Shown: positions 32,037 to 56,880 of the stretch, in pieces
How positions within the stretch are numbered: position 1 is the first letter of the stretch
Layout of the letters: every line of letters begins with the position of its first letter
Origin: Nitrospirota bacterium
GTDB taxonomy: Bacteria; Nitrospirota; Nitrospiria; Nitrospirales; Nitrospiraceae
Reading direction: 5' to 3'
DNA length: 64,000 bases
Assembly (NCBI GenBank): GCA_030684575.1
Contig: JAUXVD010000023.1
Span: forward strand, 1-64,000
Translations under genes and position numbers: made by a program
Notes under the pieces: model-generated
Databases searched by the model: none
What the model was told of the DNA's origin: nothing
Seen by the model: the letters and a program-made list of their open reading frames with translations, nothing else

Positions 32037-32828
32037 TTAGACCTGCAGAGAAGGCAAGGAAGCACCCTGGGCTCGTCGGTAGAGGAGCTCAAGCCCTTCT
32101 AATGTCAGGAGGGGTTCGATTCTTTGAATCGTCGTAGTTTCGGATGCCAGGATGGAACTGAGTCCTCCGGTGCCGATGACGTATGTCGAACGCCCAAGTT
32201 CCTGCTCCATCCGATGGACGACGGTATCGACCAATCCGGCATAGCCGAATAAGAGCCCGGATTGAATGCTGCTGGCGGTGTCGGTGCCGATCACGGTCTT
32301 GGGCCTGATCAATTCCACTTTAGCCAGTTTGGCGGCGCGTGTGAAGAGCGCTTCCGCCGAGATGCCAAGGCCGGGGGCGATGACGCCTCCGAGATAGTGG
32401 CCTTCTGCAGTGATGACGCAAAAGGTGGTGGCGGTTCCAAAGTCGACGATGATGAGGTCGCGGCGATATTTATGATAGGCGGCGGCGGCGTTGACCAGCC
32501 GGTCGCTGCCGATTTCTTTTGGATTATCGTAACGGAGGGTGAGGCCCGTGTCCGTATTCGAGGAGACCACCAAGGCGCGTTGATAAAAGTATTGTTCCAG
32601 CATCTGCTCGACAGTCTCGGTCAACGCCGGGACGACGCTGGAGACGATGGCGCCGGTAAGACGTTGCGTAGGAATTCCTGCTGCCGCGAGGAGATTGGCA
32701 AAGAGAATGCCGTATTCGTCGGACGTTTTTTTGACGTCCGTGGCGATTCGCCAATGCGCTGCCAGGGCGCGGTCTTCATAGACCCCCCAGACAATATTGG
32801 TGTTGCCGATATCGACGACAAGAAGCAT
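32037..32828 (-). CDS. coaX: Type III pantothenate kinase
   Basis: The 263-residue CoaX has the ASKHA phosphate loop LVVDIGNTNIVWG, a second phosphate motif IIVDFGTATTF, and GGVIAPG. It phosphorylates pantothenate, the first step of coenzyme A synthesis. The ATG at 32828 is chosen because it places the P-loop strand at residue 2; a TTG eight codons upstream is less likely. It follows birA at 125 bases, and the gap contains a decayed repeat copy. Confidence 0.94.
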   Translation of the reverse strand: MLLVVDIGNTNIVWGVYEDRALAAHWRIATDVKKTSDEYGILFANLLAAAGIPTQRLTGAIVSSVVPALTETVEQMLEQYFYQRALVVSSNTDTGLTLRYDNPKEIGSDRLVNAAAAYHKYRRDLIIVDFGTATTFCVITAEGHYLGGVIAPGLGISAEALFTRAAKLAKVELIRPKTVIGTDTASSIQSGLLFGYAGLVDTVVHRMEQELGRSTYVIGTGGLSSILASETTTIQRIEPLLTLEGLELLYRRAQGASLPSLQV

Positions 32829-32862
32829 GGGCCTATTGTACGGTTGGGGCAATGGATTTGGC

Positions 32863-39189: not shown

Positions 39190-39930
39190 ATGAAGACCCC
39201 CATCCACGTCATTTTTTTTGATGCAGCCGAGACACTCTTTCATATTAACGGCTCGGTGGCGGACATTTACTTGCAGCATGCGCTTCAGTATGGGTTTCGA
39301 CAGAAACCCGACTCCCTGATATCGATCGGACAGGCCTTTCAGCGCGCCTTCCATGATGCAGCACCGCCTATTTTTGCGGTCACGGACCCCCTCAAGTTAA
39401 AACAATGCGAGCGGCTCTGGTGGTTCGACATCGTCCACAACGTGTTTTATCGCGTGGGGATGTTCGAGCGATTCGATGAATTTTTCGAGCAGGTCTTTCA
39501 GGCGTTTGAGGATCCTCGGTCTTGGATCTTGTTTCCTGAAACGCATGCGGTACTGACCAAACTGCGTGAAGAGGGGTTTGAGCTGGGGATCATATCCAAT
39601 TTCGACTCTCGCCTCTTTCCCGTAATACGGGGGCTCGGCATCGACCGTCTCTTCGACACCGTGACGATATCTAGCCTAGCGCGGGCTGCGAAGCCGGCGT
39701 CAAAGATCTTTGAGCTTGCCTTGGACAAACATGCCGCTGATCCAGATGAAGCGATTCATATAGGAGATAGTGTGAGGGATGATGTGGAGGGGGCCATCAA
39801 AGCGGGGTTGACGGGGATCCTCCTCGATCGCGAGTCGCGGGCGTCGAATGTGCTGCCTGCCGGTGCGTTACGTATTGCTACGTTGTCGGAGTTGCCCCTT
39901 CTGCTGCAAGGGGGTGCGTCGGCAGAATAA
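39190..39930 (+). CDS. HAD-superfamily hydrolase, HDHD3-like
   Basis: The 246-residue protein has a HAD core with motif I as IFFDAAETLFH, motif II SNFD, motif III Lys in AKPASKIFELAL, and motif IV IHIGDSVRDDVEGA. In motif I the second Asp of DxD is Ala, as in some HDHD3-type members. A helical cap lies at ~20-110. These enzymes are mostly phosphatases, but the change in motif I makes substrate and even catalysis uncertain. It is monocistronic and convergent with the acetyltransferase gene. Confidence 0.82.
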   Translation: MKTPIHVIFFDAAETLFHINGSVADIYLQHALQYGFRQKPDSLISIGQAFQRAFHDAAPPIFAVTDPLKLKQCERLWWFDIVHNVFYRVGMFERFDEFFEQVFQAFEDPRSWILFPETHAVLTKLREEGFELGIISNFDSRLFPVIRGLGIDRLFDTVTISSLARAAKPASKIFELALDKHAADPDEAIHIGDSVRDDVEGAIKAGLTGILLDRESRASNVLPAGALRIATLSELPLLLQGGASAE

Positions 39931-41657: not shown

Positions 41658-42371
41658 CTACAGGAGTAAGGGAACGATATCTTTCGCCCTTCCTTGGAGT
41701 GAGAGGCTCACAACAGATGAATGGGGAGTGGGGTCAAGGTTGATCTCGATCACGAACGCATGATTGGCCTTGGCTGCCGGCGTCAGCATGGCAGCCGGGT
41801 AGACGAGTCCTGATGTTCCTACAATGATCATCACGTCGCAGGATTCCACGGTCTGGAAACTATTGGCCAGGACCTGCTCATCGAGTGCTTCTCCGAACCA
41901 GACGATGTGTGGCCGGAGCAACCCGCCACAGGTGTGGCAGTGGGGAAGGAGCGCGAGGGGGACCTCTCGATTGTCGGTGACTACTCGGCAGGAGGTGCAG
42001 CGGACCTTCCAGATGTCGCCGTGTAGTTCTGATAAATTTCGTGAGCCTGCCAGCCGATGGAGCCCGTCGACGTTTTGCGTAATGAGGTGGAAATTATTTG
42101 CACGTTCTTCCAGACGCACCAGGGCATGGTGCGCCTCATTCGGTCGCTTCGTGGCGAGGATCTCCCGCCGCCAGTTGTACCATTCCCAGACCAGTCGCGA
42201 ATCTCGCTCAAAGGCCTCGGGCGTCGCCAGGTCTTCTGCGCGAAAGTTGTGCCATAGGCCGTCGGCCCCGCGAAACGTCGGCACGCCGCTGTCGGCTGAA
42301 ATACCCGCGCCGGTCAGGATCGTGATGGCTCGCGCGGAGGCAATGCGTGAACGTGCTTCTACAAGGCTCAT
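41658..42371 (-). CDS. cobB: Sir2-family NAD-dependent deacylase, class III
   Basis: The 237-residue sirtuin has GAGISADSGVPTFRG, the catalytic His in LSELHGDIWKV, NVDGLHRLAG and a four-Cys zinc site (CTSC and CHTC). Tyr65 and Arg68 in WEWYNWRRE are the pair that recognises succinyl or malonyl lysine in class III sirtuins (SIRT5/CobB type), so it is probably a desuccinylase/deacetylase. It is divergent from the ketopantoate reductase fusion gene, with the two starts 66 bases apart. Confidence 0.93.
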   Translation of the reverse strand: MSLVEARSRIASARAITILTGAGISADSGVPTFRGADGLWHNFRAEDLATPEAFERDSRLVWEWYNWRREILATKRPNEAHHALVRLEERANNFHLITQNVDGLHRLAGSRNLSELHGDIWKVRCTSCRVVTDNREVPLALLPHCHTCGGLLRPHIVWFGEALDEQVLANSFQTVESCDVMIIVGTSGLVYPAAMLTPAAKANHAFVIEINLDPTPHSSVVSLSLQGRAKDIVPLLL

Positions 42372-42436: not shown

Positions 42437-43780
42437 ATGAAAAATATCCTGATGGTCGGTGCCGGGTCGGTGGGCGGGTTTTTCGGGGCGCATCTGGCGA
42501 AAAATAATCCTAATGTGTCCTTCCTGCTGCGGCCCAAGACGCTCGCAGCCGTGAAGCAGAATGGCCTCACGATCCGGAGTGCCAAGGGCACCTTTACCGT
42601 GCATCCTCCAGCCGCTTCAGATCTGCGAGAGCTGCCGAAGCCAGACCTGATCATCCTCTCCGTCAAATCCTACGATCTGGACGAGGTGCTGACACAAATC
42701 GAACCGGTCCTGACCAATCAGACCGTCATCCTGACCCTCCAGAACGGAGTCGACACGGAAGATCGCATCGTGGCGCGCCTTCAACGGGATTGCGTCATTG
42801 GTGGCGTGGCCTTCATCTATTCCAAGATCGCGTCACCCGGCGTCATCGATCATTATAAGAAGGGGGCTGTGGCCATCGGCGAGATGATGGGACATCAGAG
42901 TCCTCGTCTGTTGGCTATCGCGGATTTGTTTAAGCAGGCGGGGATTCCCTGTCAACTCACAGAGGACGTGCGGAAGAGCAAGTGGGAGAAGATGTGCTGG
43001 AACTGTGTCTTCAATCCGCTCACGGTCATTGTCGATGATAAAGTGGCGAAGACCCTGGAGCATCCGGAGATGCTTCGCGTCATTCATCAGATTGTCGAGG
43101 AAGTCTCAGCCGTTGCCGCCTCGGTCAAGGTGCCGCTGTCGCCGGATATGGCCGAGAAAGTCGTGCGTTGGACGCAGGAGATTCGCGACATCCATACCTC
43201 CATGTATGACGATTGGAAGGCCGGACGTCCGACCGAAATCGATTACTTGAACGGGTACATTGTGCAAAAGGGACGTGAGTTCGGCATCCCGACACCGGTC
43301 AATGAAGCGCTGACGGCGATGATCAAGACGATTACGGAAAAGGAAAAGACCGGTCCAGGTATCGTGCGGATCGACGGGGCGGTGGTGCAGCCTGTCTCGC
43401 TGGATCGTGCGGCGATCGCGGCCTTGCCGGCGGAACAGCAGCTCGATATTTCGACGGTGATGCCCAACATGAAAGGCAAGGGGATTCGCCTGAAAGCCTT
43501 GCTGGATGTGCCGGCCTTGGCGATCAAGGCCGATCACGTCACGGTGTATTCGGCAGACGGAAAATATTCAGCCTGTCTCACGCTCGCGCAAGCCTTGGAA
43601 TGGGGGATTCTGCTGTACGAAGTAGATGGAGAGGCACTGTCGGAATCGAAAGGCGGGCCCTATCGCTTGGTGACTCCCGGGCTGGGAGATCTGTGTGCCA
43701 ATGTGAAGGGGGTCGCGCGGATCGAAGTCACGATCGGAACCGGCACAGATACGCGGCCATCAGTCCGGACGAATTGCTGA
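42437..43780 (+). CDS. panE: Ketopantoate reductase fused to a molybdopterin-fold (sulfite-oxidase-like) domain
   Basis: Residues ~1-310 are a complete ketopantoate reductase: NADPH loop MVGAGSVGGFFGAHL, active-site Lys region KSKWEKMCWN, FNPLTVI and the TEIDYLNG Glu. This enzyme makes pantoate for coenzyme A. Residues ~315-440 form a second domain with the sulfite-oxidase molybdopterin-fold pattern: IVRIDGAVVQPVSLD, VYSADGKYSACLTLAQAL, VDGEALSESKGGPYRLVTPG, GVARIEVT. The Cys that ligates molybdenum in this fold is missing (ISTVMPNMKGKG). Family members are usually ~300 residues, so the 447-residue length reflects a real fusion. A strong GGAGGAG supports the start. Confidence 0.88.
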   Translation: MKNILMVGAGSVGGFFGAHLAKNNPNVSFLLRPKTLAAVKQNGLTIRSAKGTFTVHPPAASDLRELPKPDLIILSVKSYDLDEVLTQIEPVLTNQTVILTLQNGVDTEDRIVARLQRDCVIGGVAFIYSKIASPGVIDHYKKGAVAIGEMMGHQSPRLLAIADLFKQAGIPCQLTEDVRKSKWEKMCWNCVFNPLTVIVDDKVAKTLEHPEMLRVIHQIVEEVSAVAASVKVPLSPDMAEKVVRWTQEIRDIHTSMYDDWKAGRPTEIDYLNGYIVQKGREFGIPTPVNEALTAMIKTITEKEKTGPGIVRIDGAVVQPVSLDRAAIAALPAEQQLDISTVMPNMKGKGIRLKALLDVPALAIKADHVTVYSADGKYSACLTLAQALEWGILLYEVDGEALSESKGGPYRLVTPGLGDLCANVKGVARIEVTIGTGTDTRPSVRTNC

Positions 43781-46994: not shown

Positions 46995-47571
46995 GCTTCG
47001 TAAAACTCGCCTGATGTCGGGGTAGGGTTTGGCGTATGTATCGTCGTTGCGATGGGCTGGGGGAAGCTTACTCTGGGGAGGGTGATATTTCAATCGGTTT
47101 TCTTGATTTTTATCGTGTTCTCTCTATCCAAGGGGAGGCTTGGGTTTACAATCCAGAATAGGTCACCTTGGATTCCAATGGATGGCCGACAAGACCATGC
47201 CACTCAATTCCGTCTATGGTAGTTGCGGTCACGACTCCGCTACTTTCAGCAATCTGAATCTTTTAAAACTGTTCAATATTGACCAGCCGTGAGCGATGTT
47301 GCAGGCGTAAATTGGCTCGCAGTATAGGTATTCAGTTGTCTCGGTTGTAACCCTGTGTCCATGAAATTTCAGATTATTTACGAGAAAATTGTTGCCGGAT
47401 AAAAGCAAAACATTCTTTCGAGTTTCCACCGGAAGTACTATCCTGTCTACGGATAGAATCTGAAATCTCTTCTTCTGAGTTCCGATGATGTTTGCTAGGG
47501 GGTACTCTGCACAGCACGTCGTTAATACTTTGGGTGCTGGCCTTTTTCCTGCGGTAGGGGTTTAATTGGTG
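46995..47571. other. Long, AT-richer region upstream of the lipopeptide synthetase
   Basis: About 580 bases separate the tRNA gene from the NRPS start. The part from 47080 to 47560 is AT-richer than its surroundings. A 66-codon minus-strand frame (47429-47229) has no ribosome binding site and no motif. No clear promoter could be assigned, but a regulatory region for the NRPS operon is expected here. Confidence 0.4.
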
Positions 47572-50500
47572 ATGCCAACGCCTGTCCCTCCAACTCTACG
47601 CTACCTTTCTGACCTCTTCACATTTCGTTGCCAGGGAAAGAGTCAGGAACTCGCCTACGCCTTTGTTCGCGACAGCCTCGACATTGAGAGTCAGCTGACC
47701 TACGGAGAACTCGACCGCAGGGTGCGCTCACTGACCGGCCATCTTGCACGTAGAGTTCGACCGGGAGCGAGAGTCCTGCTCCTCTTCCCACCGGGGCTCG
47801 ATGTCGTCTCTGCGTTCTGGGCCTGTATCTGTGCCGGACTCGTGCCAGTTCCTGCCCCCGCGCTGGATCCCGTGAGGCGGAAGCATAGTGTGCCGAGGCT
47901 CCGCGCCATCGTCGAGGATGCTCAGGTATCTTTGGTCCTGACCACTTCTGCTATTGCGCCTTTCTCCTCGGAACTTTCGATCGTCAAAGACGGGAGTCAG
48001 GTCGAATGGGTGGCGACGGATCAATTGTACGATCAAACTCATGAGATTGATCTGCCGGTTCTAGGTGAACCCTCCCTTGCCTACTTGCAATATACGTCCG
48101 GGTCGACCGCCACTCCTCGTGGCGTGATGATCAGCCACCAGAATGTTTTGGCGCAGTGCGAGGCCCTTCATCTGGTTGCAGGGGTCGATCTCAACAGCCG
48201 GTCCCTCTGCTGGCTGCCATACTTTCACGATTACGGGCTTGTGCATGGCATCATCGCACCGTTTTATGCAGGTATTCCGGCATATCTCATGTCCCCCGTG
48301 ACGTTCCTGAGAAGACCTCTCCGGTGGCTGGAGGCGATGGATCGCTGGAGCATTACGCACAGTGGAGCCCCGAACTTCGCCTATGAATCCTGTACCAAGG
48401 CGCTCCGGCAACAGAAGGGCTGGATAGGCCATCTTCAGCATTGGGTTGTGGCGAGTTGTGGTGCAGAGCCGATTCATGTGGAGACGATCGAGGAGTTTGC
48501 AGAGGCGTTCCATGCCCATGGCTTTACACGCCAGGCCTTCACGCCGGCCTATGGGTTAGCGGAATCCACGTTGGTGGTGACCTCAAAACGACGGGCTGAG
48601 GAGCCGCTCCTCCTGCATGTGGCTGGTGAGGCCCTTGCTGCGCACCAAGTGACTCGAGTTTCGCCTGATGCCCTGGGAGCACGGACGTTGGTCGGGTGCG
48701 GGCCACCGCTCTCCGGCACCACTGTTCGCATCGTGGATCCTGTCACCCTCGCAGGCTGTGAAGCCGACCGCATCGGGGAAGTGTGGGTTGCCAGTCCCAG
48801 TGTCGCGCAGGGTTATTGGAATCGTGAAACAGCTGAGGATGTGACCTTTCGAGCGTCGCTCGAAGGGGATAGGCAGCGGGCATTCATGCGGACCGGCGAC
48901 CTGGGATTTCTGCATGACGGGCAACTGTTTGTTACCGGACGCCTCAAAGATTTAATCATTGTCCATGGACGGAATCTCTATCCCGGTGACATTGAACGGA
49001 CGGTTGAGCGGAGCCATTCAGGATTACGGCTTCATGGAGGAGCTGCCTTTTCTATCCAGGAAAATCGTGAGGAGTCGGTGGTGGTCCTGCAGGAAGTCGA
49101 ACGGGCACAGTCGGTTGACGTGGACGCGATTGCCATGGCCATTCGCCAGGCGGTGATGGATGAACATGAAGTGCCGGTTTCTTCCGTGGTCTTGGTCCGC
49201 AGCGGCGGGTTGCCCAAGACCTCCAGTGGCAAGATTCAGCGGGGGGCCTCCAAGGAGGCATTCATAACCGGTACCTTGCCGATCGTGGGGATCAGTCGCT
49301 ACGGGATCCAGGTCAGCGACACTCTGGCAGCAGAGGGCGACCTGATCGTCGACAAGGGGGGCGCGTCGGGCGCGGACCTGACGTCGCTAGAGGTGTACCT
49401 ACAGCTGATGGTCGCCGGGCACCTCTCTGTCGACCCGAGTTGTATTACGCTCACGCAGCCGATTGGAACGGTCGGCATCGACTCGCTCAAGGCAGGGATT
49501 ATGAAAAACCGCCTGGAGGAAGAGTTCGGAACCGAGCTGTCATTTCAGCATTTACTGATCGACTGGAGTATTCGCGATCTGGCAGAGCATCTCCTCACCC
49601 ATCAACACCAGGTCTTACCGAGCGCGGGGGCGAGGGCTGTCGATATGCCGGCCCTTCTTCCTGTGACAGTTACGTCTCCCACATTTCCGTTGTCTTCGTC
49701 ACAGCGGCGCATGTGGTTTGCTGAACGACTGAGTCCTGATTCGCCGCTCAATAATATCCCGGTAGCTGTCCGGTTGCGTGGCCCGCTCAATGTTCCGGCG
49801 TTGGAAGCGAGTGTTCACGCGATGGTTCATCGTCACGACCTGTTACGGGTAACCATCGAAGAGCAGTCAGGGGTGCCGTTTCACAGGCTGTCTGGCGACC
49901 AGGCTATCGCATTCAGGATCTACGATTATCGAGGGACGGGTGCAGAGAGACGTGGGGCAGATCTGCAGCGCCTGCTCAAACAAGAGGCAGCCAGTCGTTT
50001 CGATCTTCGTCATGGTCCGCTGATGAGGACTTCGTTACTGCGTGTGGACGAGCACGAGCATGTGTTGATTGCCACGTTTCATCATTTAATTATGGACGGA
50101 TGGTCCATCAGATTGTTGTGTCAGGAGCTGAGCGTCGTCTATGAGGCAGCCTGCTCCGGAGAGCCGGTTGTATGGACGAACCCCGCGGTGTCGTACCGCG
50201 ACTATGTCGCGTGGGAGCAGACAAGTCTCGACCGGGGACGACATGACAGGCAACGGCGCTATTGGCAGAAGCAGCTGAAGAATCTCCCGGCGCCGTGTGA
50301 ATTGCCCAGGGATTTCCCTCGGTCGGGAGAGGTACGGCAAGGCAGTCGGACCGTGACACTCGCGTTCTCGACCGCCGAATCCGATGCGTTCGACCGCTTC
50401 TGCCTGCAGACGGGGATGACGCCCTTCATGGCCACCGTGGCTGGATTGGCGACATTGCTCTATCGATATACGGGTCAGACGGATCTTGTCGTTGGAGCGC

Positions 50501-53500
50501 CGGTGAGCAATCGAGTGGCAACACAATTCGAACAGGTTCTCGGCTGCATGGTGAATACGGTTGCGCTTCGAGTCGACTGCTCCAAGAATCCGACGGCCCG
50601 TGCGCTGCTCGCGCAGGTCAGACGAGTGGTGGTCGATGCGACTAATCATCAGGATCTTCCCTTCGATGAAGTCGTTCGGGCGGTCTCTCCAGGCTACGAT
50701 GAAGCACGCGCTCCGCTCTTCCGGCTGATGGTGGCTTGGGAAGAAGATGCGGTGGCAGCACTTCGCTTAGCCGGTGTGAGCGCTGAGCGAGTTCAGATCG
50801 AACGGCTCGCCACTCCTTTTGATGCGACGGTATTCTCTCGTCGGCAGCAGGACCATATTCAGTTGGCGATCGAGTACAACACCTTTCTGTTCGAAGAGGC
50901 GACCATCACGCAGATGCTGGACCACTTGCGGTCATTGCTCGCCGAGATGGCCGCATCTCTCGATCTGCCGTTGTCCGAGCTCCCCCTGCTCACGGATCGG
51001 GAACGGCAGAAAGTCCTTGTGGAGTGGAATCGCACTCGTGCGGACGATCCGAGCGGTTCTAGCATCCATGCCCTCATCGATGCACAGGCGGCCCATGCGC
51101 CTGATGCATTGGCTGTGGTCTCGGAGAGCGGTACGCTCACGTATCGGCAGCTTTCGGAGCGATCGAATCATGTCGCGCAGGACCTTCGGCGGCAGGGGGT
51201 TCAGCCTGGAAGCCTTGTCGGGTTGCTCCTTGAGCGGTCGCTCGAAATGGTGGTGGGCATGCTCGGAATTCTCAAGGCCGGCGCAGCCTATGTGCCCCTC
51301 GATCCAGACTATACGGAGGAGCGTCTGGCGTTCATGGTGCGCGACAGCCAACTCACGGTGGTGGTAACCAATAGCCGGCTACGCAGTCGGTTACGAGCCG
51401 AGCAGCCGACGATGGTCTGTCTGGATGCCGATCAGTCGATGGTCGAGTTGAGTGCAGAGGACGGTGCGCCAGTTCAGGTTGCGGCAGATGCGCTGGCCTA
51501 TGTGATCTATACCTCGGGGTCCACAGGCCGTCCGAAGGGTGCCATGATTTCCCACCGCTCGTTGGTAAACTTCGCCCTCGCCTTTGCGGTTGAGTGCCGG
51601 ATGTCCTCACACGATTGTGTGTTGCACATGGCCACGATCAGTTTTGACGCAGCTGTCCTCGAGATTTTTCCGTGCTTGGTAACGGGCTCCACGTTGGTGC
51701 TTCGTGAGAACTTGCCCCCCGGAACTCCTGCCGAATTCATGCAGAGTTGCGCGCAGGGCTCCGTCACAATGGCATTCCTACCTACCGCGTACTGGCATCA
51801 TCTTGTGCAGGAGTGGGCTGGCGATCGTGTGAGCATTCCGGCCTCGCTCAGGAGGATCATCATCGGGGGCGAGAAGGCGTCAGAGCCTGTCTGCGTGCGT
51901 TGGTTTGCGCTAGCAGGAATGCGTGTGCAGTTACTGAATGCCTACGGACCGACGGAAGCGACGGTTGCGGCGACGATGGTGAATCTTTCCGCCCTCTGGG
52001 AAGACCATTCGCTTGGTTCGGAGGTTCCGATCGGCCGTCCTCTGCGAAACATGCGGGTCTATGTGTTGGATCGTCATCGGAATCCCGTTCCCGTCGGAGC
52101 AGTCGGCGAACTCTATATTGCCGGTCTTGGAGTCGGGCTGGGGTATCTCCACGATCCTGGCCTGACAGCAGACTCGTTCATGGCCGATCCCTTTGTTCCG
52201 GGAGATCGAATGTACAAGACCGGCGATCTTGGGAGGTTCCGCCGAGACGGGCAGCTCCTCTGTCTCGGACGAGTCGATCAGCAGATCAAGCTGAGAGGCT
52301 TCCGGATCGAACCAGGCGAGATCGAGGCGGCGCTCATGGCTGTTCCCGGTGTTCGAGAGGCGACGGTGGTACTGCGCGAGATTCCTCCCCGCGGCCCGTT
52401 GATCGCGGCCTACGTGACCACCGATGCGCATGCAGGTTTGTCTGGCCGAGAAATCTTGAGCGGACTGAGACGGGTTTTGCCGCATTACATGGTGCCGGCC
52501 GCCTGTGTCCTGCTTGAATCATTGCCCTATGGACCAAGTGGGAAAGTCGATCGGCGGGCGTTGCCTATGCCGGCTCTGGGCTCGATCGATCAGGCGGTTG
52601 CCCGTGTGGCTCCGCGAGATCACATTGAGCAGAGCCTCATGGACATGTGGGTGGATGTGCTCGGTGTGCCCGTTTCCAGCGTCCATGACAGCTTCTTCGA
52701 TGTGAGCGGACATTCGCTGCTTGCCACACAGGTCCTCTCGCGAATCCAGGAACTTTTTTCGCTCAACCTCCCACTCAGGACCATTTTTGATACGCCGACC
52801 ATTGCGCAGCTGGCCGAACATATCCGAGCCGAACAGCGACGGGGGGGTGGACGTGCCGCGCTGCCTCCCATCGTTGCCGTGTCCCGCACCGAGCCGCTCC
52901 CACTGTCGTATTCTCAACAACGTATGTGGGTCATGTACCAACTTGCCCCCAAGGGGACTGCGTATAACATGCCGTTTGCCTCGCGGCAGACCGGCCCATT
53001 GAATAAACGATGGTTGCGTCAGACGATTCAGGCCGTCACACGTCGGCATGACTCGTTTCGTACGACGTTTCGGATGACCGAAAGCGGGCCGGTTCAGGTT
53101 GTCGCGGATTGGCAGCCTCCGCATTGGGTTGAAATTGATCTGCAAAATCTGCCGCGCCATGAACGACTGGCAGAGGCTATTCGGCTTGTCGAAGAAGAGG
53201 CTCGCACGCCGTTTGATCTTGAACGGGGACCTGTTGCCCGGTTCTTTTTGATTACGCTCGATACGGAAGACCATATTCTTGTATTGAGCATGCATCACAT
53301 TATTGGGGATCAGTGGTCGTTCGGAGTGATCGGTCAGGAATTTGCCGCGTACTATAACGCGCTCAGTCAAGGCCATTCAGTTCCGGATGTTTCGTTCCCG
53401 ATCCAATACGTTGACTTCGCGATGTGGCAGCGGCGGTGCCTTACCGATGATACCCTTCGCCCTCAATTGGAGTATTGGCGCGATACACTGGCGAATCTCC

Positions 53501-56500
53501 CGGTCTTATCGCTGCCGACCGACCTTCCGCGACCTCCCATGAACACGTATACGGGATCCTATTGTGCGTGGGATCTGCCGAGTTCCCTCATTGAGCGGCT
53601 GAAAATGTTCAGCGCGCATCGCCGCGTCTCATCGTTCATGACCCTCCTGGCCTGTTTCCAGGTTTTGTTAAGTCGTTGGTCGGGTCAGACGGATTTTGCC
53701 GTGGGCGCTCCGATCGCAAACCGCACCCAGGTCATGACGGAGTCGTTGGTCGGGACGTTCGTGAATACCTTGGTGCTGAGGGCGGATCTGTCGGAGGATC
53801 CGACGTTTGATGAGCTCCTGAGGCGGGTTCGTGACACGGCCCTGGGGGCCTATGAGAATCAAGACTTTCCCTTCGAAAAACTGGTCGACGTGCTCCACGT
53901 GAATCGCGATTCGAGCCACTCGCCACTGATTCAGGTACTGTTCAACGTCGCCAATGCCCCGATCGGTGAGGTGGACCTTCACGGGCTGTCGTGGGTTCCG
54001 CTGCACGTCGATGCCGGCTCTGCACAGTTCGACATGAGTCTCACGGTCGAAACGGAAATCGCGAAAAAAGTGTACCTGTCATACAGTACAGATCTCTTTA
54101 CCCGTCAGACGGCTGAACGAATGCTCGACCATTTTGGTGCGCTGCTTCAGCAGGCACTCGCGCATCCAGGGCTTCGCGTGTCCGAGTTATCCATGCTGAG
54201 TTCTGTAGAAGAACAGCGGCTGCTCATTGAATGGAATAGAACCACGTCAGACTACCCGCATAGCCAATGTTTCCCGGATCTCTTCGAGGCGCAAGTCGAG
54301 CGGGGACCAGATGCCATTGCCGTGTCTATGGAAGGTCGGGCCTTAAGCTATCGAGTATTGAATGCGCAGGCAAATCAAATGGCTCGTGCGCTCTCCGCTC
54401 TGGGCGTCACGCGGGACGTGACCGTCGGGATTTGTCTCGACCGATCGATCGAGAAGCTCGTCACACTCTTGGCCGTCTGGAAAGCCGGAGGTTGTTATCT
54501 CCCGCTCGACCCGGACTACCCGCGAGATCGGGTTCGCTTCATGCTCGACGATGCGAGGGCCACTCTGGTGGTGACGACGACTGCTCTGTCCGATCGATTC
54601 GGATTTCAAGCGTCCCGAGTGCTGTGCCTTGATCGGATGAGGGACTCTTTCACGCAGGAGGCGGACCACAATATGCCGCCGATCGCCGGCGTTTCCGATC
54701 TTGCCTACATTCTGTATACCTCCGGGTCGACCGGACAACCCAAAGGCGTTGAGATTACACACCGTTCCCTGGTGAATTTTTTGTGGTCTATGAAGGATGA
54801 GCCTGGCTGTTCGGCGCAGGATATCTTCATGTCGGTGACGACATTGTCGTTCGACATTGCGGCATTGGAGTTGTATCTGCCGTTGCTGACCGGCGCGCGA
54901 GTCGAGCTTGTACGTCGGGCTGTCGCGATGGAGGGGCATCAATTACGTGAACTATTTGAGGCAGTTCAGCCGACGATCATGCAAGCCACGCCGGCGACGT
55001 GGCATCTGCTGCTGGATGCCGGCTGGACCGGTAGCCAATCGTTGACCGCGCTCTGTGGGGGAGAAGCCCTGTCGGCTGATCTTGCGGAGAAACTACGCGA
55101 GCGCTCGAAAGCCGTGTGGAATATGTATGGGCCTACGGAAACGACCATTTGGTCTACGATCTCGAACATCGCGCGAGAGAAACGGGACATCACCATCGGG
55201 CGCCCGATTGCCAATACGGAAATCTATATCTTGGATCGTCATATGCGACCGGTTCCCGTCGGCGTGCCGGGGGAGCTATATATTGGTGGGCATGGTCTGG
55301 CCAGAGGATATCATCGTCGTCCAGATTTAACCGCTGAACGGTTTATTGCCCACCCGTTCTCTTCGGATCCTCACGCGAGGCTCTATCGTACGGGAGACCT
55401 CGCGCGGTATCGCTCAGATGGGCGTATCCTGCATCTCGGTCGGCTGGATCATCAGGTGAAGATCCGTGGATTCAGAATAGAGTTGGGTGAGATCGAGGCA
55501 GTGCTGAGCCGCCATCCCGCCGTCCGTCAGGTCGTGGTGACTGCGCGGGACGACCAACAAGGTCTCAAGCAACTGGTGGCCTATCTGGTCTCTCACGAAG
55601 GGCAAGCACCCAGCTCGACAGACCTTCGCGCATTTGTGCATAGGACGCTTCCCGATTATATGATGCCGTCATTTTTTGTCTTTTTAGAGGCGTTGCCTCT
55701 GACAGCGAATAATAAAGTCAACGTGAATGCGTTGCCACCTCCTGCCGTAGAAGCCGCGTCAAGTGAGAAGATCTATGTCGGTCCACGTAATGGGATGGAA
55801 GTGCAGCTGGCCGCTCTATGGCAGCAGGTACTGGGACTGTCAAAGATCGGGATCCATGACAACTTTTTCGATCTCGGTGGTCATTCGCTCAAAGCGGCTC
55901 AGCTCTTTTTCCTTCTCGAACAGGTGTATGGAAGGCACCTTCCGCTCGCCACGCTGTTTCAAGCGCCGACCATTGCCGCTCTCGCGTCGGTTCTTTCACA
56001 CGAACAGTGGGTGCCGCCGTGGCAATCTTTGGTTGCGATCCAGCCGAGCGGGTCGGCCATCCCGATGTTCATGGTGCCGGGGGTGGGCGGCAACGTGTTG
56101 GTATTTGCGCAATTGGCAAGGCTGTTGGGTGCTGACCAGCCGGTCTATGGGCTCCAGACGAGAGGGTTGGATGGGAATGCGATTCCGTTTACCTCGGTGC
56201 CGGACATGGCATGCCATTACATCGCTGAGATCCGCACCTGTCGCCCGCAAGGGCCCTACGTCATTCTTGGTTCTTGTACCGGTGGGTTGATCGCCTATGA
56301 GATGGCGCAGCAATTACTCGCGCAGGGGGAATCCGTCACCTTGGTCGTGATGGATACCTGGCACCCTTCTTCGTATCGCCCTCATCGTCATAAGTGGCCG
56401 ATGCGAATGTGGTTGCCGCTCTTTATTCTCTGGAGGACCCTGCGGAATTTCGACGTGCTCCTCCGCATGCCGATGAAAGACTGGAGGCCGTTCGTACGGC

Positions 56501-56880
56501 GCAAATATGAGACGCTCTTCTCATTTGTAGCAAGAAGATCCACGGAGGATAAACTGTTTATTGAGTTTCAGGTCGAACGAATGAAGCAATCGACATTTCA
56601 CGCGGTGGCCCGTTATGTATTGCGTAACTATCCCGGGCGTATTCTCAATATTGTGGCTTCAACCCATCACGTGGCCGAGACGGTACAAGATACCAGGTAT
56701 GTCTGGGACCAGCTTGCCGGTGGAGGGTGCCAGACTGTGCATGTCGCCGCCGCTCACGCAGGGTTCCTCCTCGCTTCGCCACATGTCGAAGAATTGTCCG
56801 CTCATGTTCAGGCCTTCCTTGCCGTTGATGCTCAGGATACGATGGCGTGCGACCGCCGCACTCGCGATGTGATGGCGTAA
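47572..56880 (+). CDS. Hybrid FAAL-NRPS lipopeptide synthetase
   Basis: One 3102-residue protein. Domains in order: fatty acyl-AMP ligase (~5-580; YTSGSTATPRGVMISH, GRLKDLIIVHGRNLYP); ACP with phosphopantetheine Ser638 in VGIDSLK; C1 (~665-1130; HHLIMDG, His837); A1 (~1150-1650; YTSGSTGRPKG); PCP1 (Ser1715 in SGHSL); C2 (~1760-2220; HHIIGDQW, with Gln where Gly is usual); A2 (~2230-2720; YTSGSTGQPKG); PCP2 (Ser2772 in GGHSL); thioesterase (~2800-3060; nucleophile Cys2902 in GSCTGG). It should activate a fatty acid, join it to amino acid 1, then amino acid 2, and release it. The A2 pocket residues read tentatively DILQLGMIW, close to glycine-type codes. A1 reads tentatively DALAIGAVA, not assigned. 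GTG or TTG just upstream (47569, 47566) are alternative starts with AGGGG nearby. Confidence 0.93.
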   Translation: MPTPVPPTLRYLSDLFTFRCQGKSQELAYAFVRDSLDIESQLTYGELDRRVRSLTGHLARRVRPGARVLLLFPPGLDVVSAFWACICAGLVPVPAPALDPVRRKHSVPRLRAIVEDAQVSLVLTTSAIAPFSSELSIVKDGSQVEWVATDQLYDQTHEIDLPVLGEPSLAYLQYTSGSTATPRGVMISHQNVLAQCEALHLVAGVDLNSRSLCWLPYFHDYGLVHGIIAPFYAGIPAYLMSPVTFLRRPLRWLEAMDRWSITHSGAPNFAYESCTKALRQQKGWIGHLQHWVVASCGAEPIHVETIEEFAEAFHAHGFTRQAFTPAYGLAESTLVVTSKRRAEEPLLLHVAGEALAAHQVTRVSPDALGARTLVGCGPPLSGTTVRIVDPVTLAGCEADRIGEVWVASPSVAQGYWNRETAEDVTFRASLEGDRQRAFMRTGDLGFLHDGQLFVTGRLKDLIIVHGRNLYPGDIERTVERSHSGLRLHGGAAFSIQENREESVVVLQEVERAQSVDVDAIAMAIRQAVMDEHEVPVSSVVLVRSGGLPKTSSGKIQRGASKEAFITGTLPIVGISRYGIQVSDTLAAEGDLIVDKGGASGADLTSLEVYLQLMVAGHLSVDPSCITLTQPIGTVGIDSLKAGIMKNRLEEEFGTELSFQHLLIDWSIRDLAEHLLTHQHQVLPSAGARAVDMPALLPVTVTSPTFPLSSSQRRMWFAERLSPDSPLNNIPVAVRLRGPLNVPALEASVHAMVHRHDLLRVTIEEQSGVPFHRLSGDQAIAFRIYDYRGTGAERRGADLQRLLKQEAASRFDLRHGPLMRTSLLRVDEHEHVLIATFHHLIMDGWSIRLLCQELSVVYEAACSGEPVVWTNPAVSYRDYVAWEQTSLDRGRHDRQRRYWQKQLKNLPAPCELPRDFPRSGEVRQGSRTVTLAFSTAESDAFDRFCLQTGMTPFMATVAGLATLLYRYTGQTDLVVGAPVSNRVATQFEQVLGCMVNTVALRVDCSKNPTARALLAQVRRVVVDATNHQDLPFDEVVRAVSPGYDEARAPLFRLMVAWEEDAVAALRLAGVSAERVQIERLATPFDATVFSRRQQDHIQLAIEYNTFLFEEATITQMLDHLRSLLAEMAASLDLPLSELPLLTDRERQKVLVEWNRTRADDPSGSSIHALIDAQAAHAPDALAVVSESGTLTYRQLSERSNHVAQDLRRQGVQPGSLVGLLLERSLEMVVGMLGILKAGAAYVPLDPDYTEERLAFMVRDSQLTVVVTNSRLRSRLRAEQPTMVCLDADQSMVELSAEDGAPVQVAADALAYVIYTSGSTGRPKGAMISHRSLVNFALAFAVECRMSSHDCVLHMATISFDAAVLEIFPCLVTGSTLVLRENLPPGTPAEFMQSCAQGSVTMAFLPTAYWHHLVQEWAGDRVSIPASLRRIIIGGEKASEPVCVRWFALAGMRVQLLNAYGPTEATVAATMVNLSALWEDHSLGSEVPIGRPLRNMRVYVLDRHRNPVPVGAVGELYIAGLGVGLGYLHDPGLTADSFMADPFVPGDRMYKTGDLGRFRRDGQLLCLGRVDQQIKLRGFRIEPGEIEAALMAVPGVREATVVLREIPPRGPLIAAYVTTDAHAGLSGREILSGLRRVLPHYMVPAACVLLESLPYGPSGKVDRRALPMPALGSIDQAVARVAPRDHIEQSLMDMWVDVLGVPVSSVHDSFFDVSGHSLLATQVLSRIQELFSLNLPLRTIFDTPTIAQLAEHIRAEQRRGGGRAALPPIVAVSRTEPLPLSYSQQRMWVMYQLAPKGTAYNMPFASRQTGPLNKRWLRQTIQAVTRRHDSFRTTFRMTESGPVQVVADWQPPHWVEIDLQNLPRHERLAEAIRLVEEEARTPFDLERGPVARFFLITLDTEDHILVLSMHHIIGDQWSFGVIGQEFAAYYNALSQGHSVPDVSFPIQYVDFAMWQRRCLTDDTLRPQLEYWRDTLANLPVLSLPTDLPRPPMNTYTGSYCAWDLPSSLIERLKMFSAHRRVSSFMTLLACFQVLLSRWSGQTDFAVGAPIANRTQVMTESLVGTFVNTLVLRADLSEDPTFDELLRRVRDTALGAYENQDFPFEKLVDVLHVNRDSSHSPLIQVLFNVANAPIGEVDLHGLSWVPLHVDAGSAQFDMSLTVETEIAKKVYLSYSTDLFTRQTAERMLDHFGALLQQALAHPGLRVSELSMLSSVEEQRLLIEWNRTTSDYPHSQCFPDLFEAQVERGPDAIAVSMEGRALSYRVLNAQANQMARALSALGVTRDVTVGICLDRSIEKLVTLLAVWKAGGCYLPLDPDYPRDRVRFMLDDARATLVVTTTALSDRFGFQASRVLCLDRMRDSFTQEADHNMPPIAGVSDLAYILYTSGSTGQPKGVEITHRSLVNFLWSMKDEPGCSAQDIFMSVTTLSFDIAALELYLPLLTGARVELVRRAVAMEGHQLRELFEAVQPTIMQATPATWHLLLDAGWTGSQSLTALCGGEALSADLAEKLRERSKAVWNMYGPTETTIWSTISNIAREKRDITIGRPIANTEIYILDRHMRPVPVGVPGELYIGGHGLARGYHRRPDLTAERFIAHPFSSDPHARLYRTGDLARYRSDGRILHLGRLDHQVKIRGFRIELGEIEAVLSRHPAVRQVVVTARDDQQGLKQLVAYLVSHEGQAPSSTDLRAFVHRTLPDYMMPSFFVFLEALPLTANNKVNVNALPPPAVEAASSEKIYVGPRNGMEVQLAALWQQVLGLSKIGIHDNFFDLGGHSLKAAQLFFLLEQVYGRHLPLATLFQAPTIAALASVLSHEQWVPPWQSLVAIQPSGSAIPMFMVPGVGGNVLVFAQLARLLGADQPVYGLQTRGLDGNAIPFTSVPDMACHYIAEIRTCRPQGPYVILGSCTGGLIAYEMAQQLLAQGESVTLVVMDTWHPSSYRPHRHKWPMRMWLPLFILWRTLRNFDVLLRMPMKDWRPFVRRKYETLFSFVARRSTEDKLFIEFQVERMKQSTFHAVARYVLRNYPGRILNIVASTHHVAETVQDTRYVWDQLAGGGCQTVHVAAAHAGFLLASPHVEELSAHVQAFLAVDAQDTMACDRRTRDVMA

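Follow-up and report, generated by a model that had tools for sequence, protein, structure and literature searches.

Ketopantoate reductases (KPR or PanE; TIGR00745) of solved structure as well as the E. coli enzyme are proteins of ~290–335 aa. The enzyme from Thermococcus kodakarensis is inhibited by CoA (PMC6650551), and thus CoA synthesis can be controlled at the KPR step, in this case without an extra domain. The SUOX fold is found in the Moco domain (PF00174) of sulfite oxidase, SoxC, SorA and MsrP (YedY); sulfite oxidases possess a Mo-ligand Cys with its loop and a second (dimerisation) domain. PruR, in turn, is a Cys-less SUOX-fold pterin sensor, which binds reduced pterins and acts through binding of a partner protein (PMC13259868). 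Its residues Tyr104 and Trp160 touch the pterin and Asn102 (Asp in some groups) is located close by, whereby the numbering of Trp160, described as ‘mostly conserved’, refers to PruR of A. tumefaciens (PMC13259868). In the PruR-DcpA/DTB systems, PruR is exported, and its gene shares an operon with that of a DcpA- or kinase-type regulator. Here, we describe a gene in which a PanE-type KPR continues into a SUOX-fold domain. It is located at positions 42437..43780 (+ strand) of the window, that is the whole 64,000-nucleotide stretch of Nitrospirota DNA that was analysed. The open frame runs from ATG to stop without internal stop codons and encodes 447 aa, and the same fusion is present in relatives.

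A ketopantoate reductase with a SUOX-fold tail

The N-terminal part of the protein, hereafter the head (residues 1–302; 42437..43342, + strand), resembles PanE throughout, in its catalytic residues as well as in its fold, and the solved KPRs and the E. coli enzyme end where the Nitrospira tail begins. Pfam searches returned ApbA (1.6e-38) and ApbA_C (6.1e-37), and the score against TIGR00745 was 284.6 bits as compared to a cut-off of 141.35. Alignment with E. coli PanE matched K72, N98, K176, N180, N184, S244 and E256. The catalytic pair K176 and E256 corresponds to Lys185 and Glu267 of the head, while N98, N180, N184 and S244 correspond to N103, N189, N193 and S255, respectively. However, E. 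coli N194 and N241 are replaced by V203 and I252. The original prediction of a complete PanE active site is therefore correct for seven residues, but two active-site positions are changed. A predicted model of the full-length protein (pTM 0.76) matched enzymes of the KPR family with solved structures at Z scores as high as 39; the list of matches is filled by KPRs and covers the head only, and D-mandelate dehydrogenase is also structurally close. By sequence and structure criteria the head is a PanE, which is predicted to reduce ketopantoate with NADPH. It is the sole PanE found by a search of the source genome, which also encodes panB, panC and CoaX.

The tail (~residues 309–436; 43361..43744, + strand) scored above the PF00174 cut-off, both within the whole protein (9e-13) and alone (6.2e-14; 52 bits, cut-off 24). 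The predicted model of the tail alone is of high quality (pLDDT 90.3, pTM 0.85) and matches SUOX-family Moco enzymes with Z scores of up to 18.4, in agreement with the SUOX fold that had been proposed from the sequence. It also matches the PruR structures (PDB 7kos, 7kom, 7kp2, 7rkb; Z 12.5–14.7), including the neopterin complex 7rkb (Z 14.5). With the Moco domains, the tail shares the fold as well as the GGPxR...NVK residues of the cofactor loop. The source genome encodes three further PF00174 proteins, all of which contain the Mo-ligand Cys. Alignment of the tail with these paralogues and with PruR revealed that not only this Cys, whose absence had been predicted, but the entire loop carrying it is missing at residues 338–340 (43448..43456, + strand), which is exactly the position of the gap in PruR. 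Likewise, the second domain of sulfite oxidases is absent and, differing from SUOX-family Moco enzymes in this respect too, the tail is not exported. Since the Mo-ligand Cys loop is absent, the tail cannot hold Mo the way sulfite oxidases do, and a usual Moco enzyme was rejected as an explanation. Thus, the assignment as a PF00174 tail on a PanE head is upheld by profiles, predicted structure and alignment.

Distribution, genomic context and history

The PanE-tail fusion is present in well over 100 genomes of Nitrospirales. It occurs in almost every genome of the family to which the window belongs and also in three further families of its order, and it is in frame in the complete chromosome of N. 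moscoviensis. An assembly or frame error was rejected on the basis of these in-frame occurrences in many assemblies and one complete chromosome. The fusion is wholly missing in some members, e.g. in one genus (g8) of family f3 and in two genomes (G026, G027) of the window's own genus. Six genomes (G218, G231, G199, G099, G128, G097) were left out of the counts of tail-only or partial forms, because in these cases the gene runs into a contig end. A scan of genome contigs with the tail, using one strict pattern, detected relatives only in Nitrospirota records, one of them labelled Nitrospinota, and a phylum-wide profile search returned no close tail relatives outside this class. The fusion is widespread, within one order. 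No study characterising it was found in a literature search, which yielded no paper linking Nitrospira with ketopantoate reductase and none on a KPR-molybdopterin-domain fusion, so that the earlier statement that no standard role is known for it stands.

Plasmids were searched as well; PanEs and SUOX-type proteins were encoded separately on them, and no fusion was found. On a Sulfitobacter plasmid (L123:2384-4296), the gene of a PruR homologue is next to that of a sensor histidine kinase and folE2 is nearby, i.e. a pair of the PruR-kinase type near a pterin-synthesis gene. Haloarchaeal plasmids (L122:2944-3444, L125:3001-3420) encode short PF00174-like proteins (139–166 aa) keeping a Cys at the Mo-ligand column.

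In the window, the fused gene has as neighbours a divergent gene for a Sir2 NAD-dependent deacylase (41658..42371, − strand), which is found nearby in several genera (cluster c1), and a gene for a REG-2-like HAD hydrolase (39190..39930, + strand), which lies near PanE in both the fused and the separate arrangements (cluster c5). The type III pantothenate kinase gene coaX (32037..32852, − strand; PF03309, 7.1e-77) is found on this contig as well, at a distance of ~10 kb. Neither a pterin gene among the neighbours in the window nor a gene for a DcpA- or kinase-type regulator beside the fused gene was seen. Elsewhere in the window, an ORF of 3104 aa (47566-56880, + strand) starts like an acyl-ligase and ends like a thioesterase; judged by eye, it resembles a multi-module nonribosomal peptide synthetase.

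Candidatus Manganitrophaceae and further families of this class encode the tail as a protein on its own, which has 172–199 aa, a His-rich C-terminus and no evident export signal. In three of the genomes with a separate tail, its gene is located 2–4 kb from a separate panE. Long stretches of the type HGHSHDHGHDH... terminate seven of the separate homologues (L073:8785-9372, L074:8114-8701, L075:8668-9255, L076:8206-8766, L077:3554-4084, L078:8103-8702 and L079:8094-8612), which suggests metal binding by these sequences. Originally, in the ancestor of the class, the tail was a protein of its own, encoded close to panE in some lineages, and the fusion was formed by the time of the Nitrospirales ancestor.

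The history of the fused gene includes losses of its head. In three genomes (G050, G044, G214), the tail stands alone at the position where synteny places the fused gene; no trace of PanE was found at the locus or elsewhere in these genomes, while panB and panC remain. In the tail tree, many deeper branches of which are weakly supported, G050 groups with a fused form (G060; support 96), and G044 and G214 are placed together inside the fused clade. This implies at least two losses of PanE in which the tail was retained. As two lineages have kept the tail in place after loss of PanE, it must have a job of its own, and control of KPR cannot be its only role.

PanE is dispensable in this class: it is absent from nine of 20 genomes in which panB and panC are present. 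The genomes encoding panB, panC and CoaX but no PanE above the family cut-off are G026, G027, G041, G044, G047, G050, G054, G063 and G214. In these nine genomes another reductase must make pantoate; presumably, an enzyme such as IlvC substitutes for the absent PanE.

Relative to nine relatives of the same genus (83–97% identity; distant pairs are near synonymous saturation), dN/dS ratios ranged from 0.02 to 0.17 for the tail and from 0.03 to 0.10 for the head. Purifying selection on the tail is as strong as on the head and, considering also its conservation, a decaying tail was rejected. Divergence of head and tail is unequal in some pairs. The heads are 91% identical to that of G036 and the tails 68%, and synonymous divergence of the tail is at most half that of the head in L005–L007. 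Comparison of 42437-43780 with L005, L006, L007 and L011 hints at recombination inside the fused gene.

The pocket of the tail and its possible functions

The highest conservation in the tail is found in the old cofactor loop, GGPFRL..PGLGDLCANVK, in which GGPxRL and CxNVK are invariant in fused and separate forms alike. Arg410 of the GGPxRL motif (43664..43666, + strand) is a residue of the Moco-enzyme type, whereas PruR has Phe or Trp in this loop. Cys420-A-N-V-Lys424 (43694..43708, + strand) represents the invariant C-(A/S/C)-N-V-K motif. Lys424 is common to the tail and the Moco enzymes, while the corresponding column contains the pterin-stacking Trp in PruR. Cys420 (GDLCANVK), which had escaped notice at first reading, is invariant across the tail family, and none of the PruR or Cys-bearing SUOX sequences compared has a Cys in this column; among these, it is peculiar to the tail family. 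Asp374 and Tyr377 (43556..43567, + strand) occupy the columns of PruR Asn102 and Tyr104, although Moco enzymes have similar residues of the D-x-Y type there. The tail therefore resembles PruR in being a short SUOX-fold domain with the Cys-loop gap at the same place and in similar Asn/Asp and Tyr/Phe positions. It differs from PruR in the stacking residue, in the GP loop, in its additional Cys and in being cytosolic and C-terminal to an enzyme. A PruR orthologue was rejected, as the Trp, the export signal and a partner gene are all missing. The tail plausibly works in the manner of PruR.

Our preferred explanation, which we put forward tentatively and at somewhat less than an even chance, is a working KPR joined to a non-catalytic, cytosolic tail with a small metabolite as its ligand. 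This would most likely be a pterin or a pterin-like compound carrying phosphate, and its binding would tune the reductase, dock a partner or both. The old cofactor loop would still bind a small ligand, in a putative pocket formed by R410, K424, D374, Y377 and C420, and the tail would act as a non-redox module that may tune pantoate synthesis. This is consistent with the fold match, the Cys-loop gap at the same place as in PruR, the invariant motifs, the low dN/dS and the retention of the tail after PanE loss. In sulfite oxidase structures, the Arg/Lys pair equivalent to R410 and K424 contacts the molybdopterin; its retention in the tail suggests that the ligand is pterin-like and anionic, for instance through phosphorylation. 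The idea of pterin sensing, raised in the original prediction, has a precedent in PruR (PMC13259868; PDB 7kos, 7rkb), but the pocket matches that of PruR only in part. Counted against this explanation are the replacement of PruR Trp160 by Lys424, the absence of the PruR export signal and partner genes, the lack of a pterin gene among the neighbours in the window and also the His-rich termini of the separate homologues, which point to metal rather than pterin in that lineage.

Alternatively, the tail could be a scaffold that binds no small molecule but determines the oligomeric state or serves as a docking site for another protein. In its favour, the cofactor loop with the metal ligand is missing, the retention of the tail without PanE in two lineages would fit protein docking, and PruR itself relies on partner-protein binding (PMC13259868). 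The most conserved part of the tail is the GGPFRL..PGLGDLCANVK stretch of the old cofactor loop, which is easier explained by a ligand, however, and we consider a scaffold rather unlikely. A little less probable still is that the tail handles a metal or metal-pterin, either through Cys420, aided by the His-rich ends in the separate forms, or as molybdopterin without the usual Cys ligand. The invariance of Cys420, the Moco-type residues Arg410 and Lys424, the His-rich C-termini of seven separate homologues and the presence in most fused forms of a Cys as the C-terminal residue or close to it speak in its favour. However, neither the usual Mo-ligand Cys nor its loop is present, there are exceptions to the C-terminal Cys (L020, L022, L025 and L028), and the fused forms have no His-rich end. 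The tail-only forms of Nitrospirales lack such an end, too, and both kinds mostly terminate with ...DTRP..C.

It appears improbable that the head is another 2-oxoacid reductase of the same family with the tail serving that pathway: D-mandelate dehydrogenase is a close structural match in addition to the KPRs, the residues N194 and N241 of E. coli are replaced, and PanE is lacking in nine of 20 genomes of the class with panB and panC, but the TIGR00745 score is far above the cut-off, the catalytic Lys and Glu and further pantoate-site residues are kept, and the genome, which encodes panB, panC and CoaX, has no second PanE. A decaying remnant or an artefact of assembly as the source of the tail deserves hardly any credence and is refuted by the results; the absence of the catalytic Cys might be read this way, but the same frame recurs in many assemblies and one complete chromosome, dN/dS is far below 1 and the tail was retained where PanE was lost.

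Possible implications for CoA synthesis in Nitrospira

Taken together, our data show that the fusion is real, old and kept by selection, and we found no study of it. Type III pantothenate kinases escape CoA feedback, and control at KPR would therefore be useful, which is an argument rather than evidence. More speculatively, and with doubt, a cytosolic PruR-fold pterin sensor with its own Arg/Lys/Cys pocket may control the pantoate step of Nitrospirales and also work alone via another partner, thereby tying pterin pools to CoA supply. Because PanE was lost twice while the tail persisted, a role of the tail on its own can be tested directly. The annotation as molybdopterin-dependent oxidoreductase, which short PF00174 proteins often receive, would mislead in the case of the Nitrospira tail, as it does in others. 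To our knowledge, no other enzyme has a built-in PruR-like domain, and this would be the first such case if the tail senses a metabolite. PruR-like sensing would then extend to the cytosol and beyond Proteobacteria, and would provide a control point for CoA synthesis in nitrite-oxidising Nitrospira.
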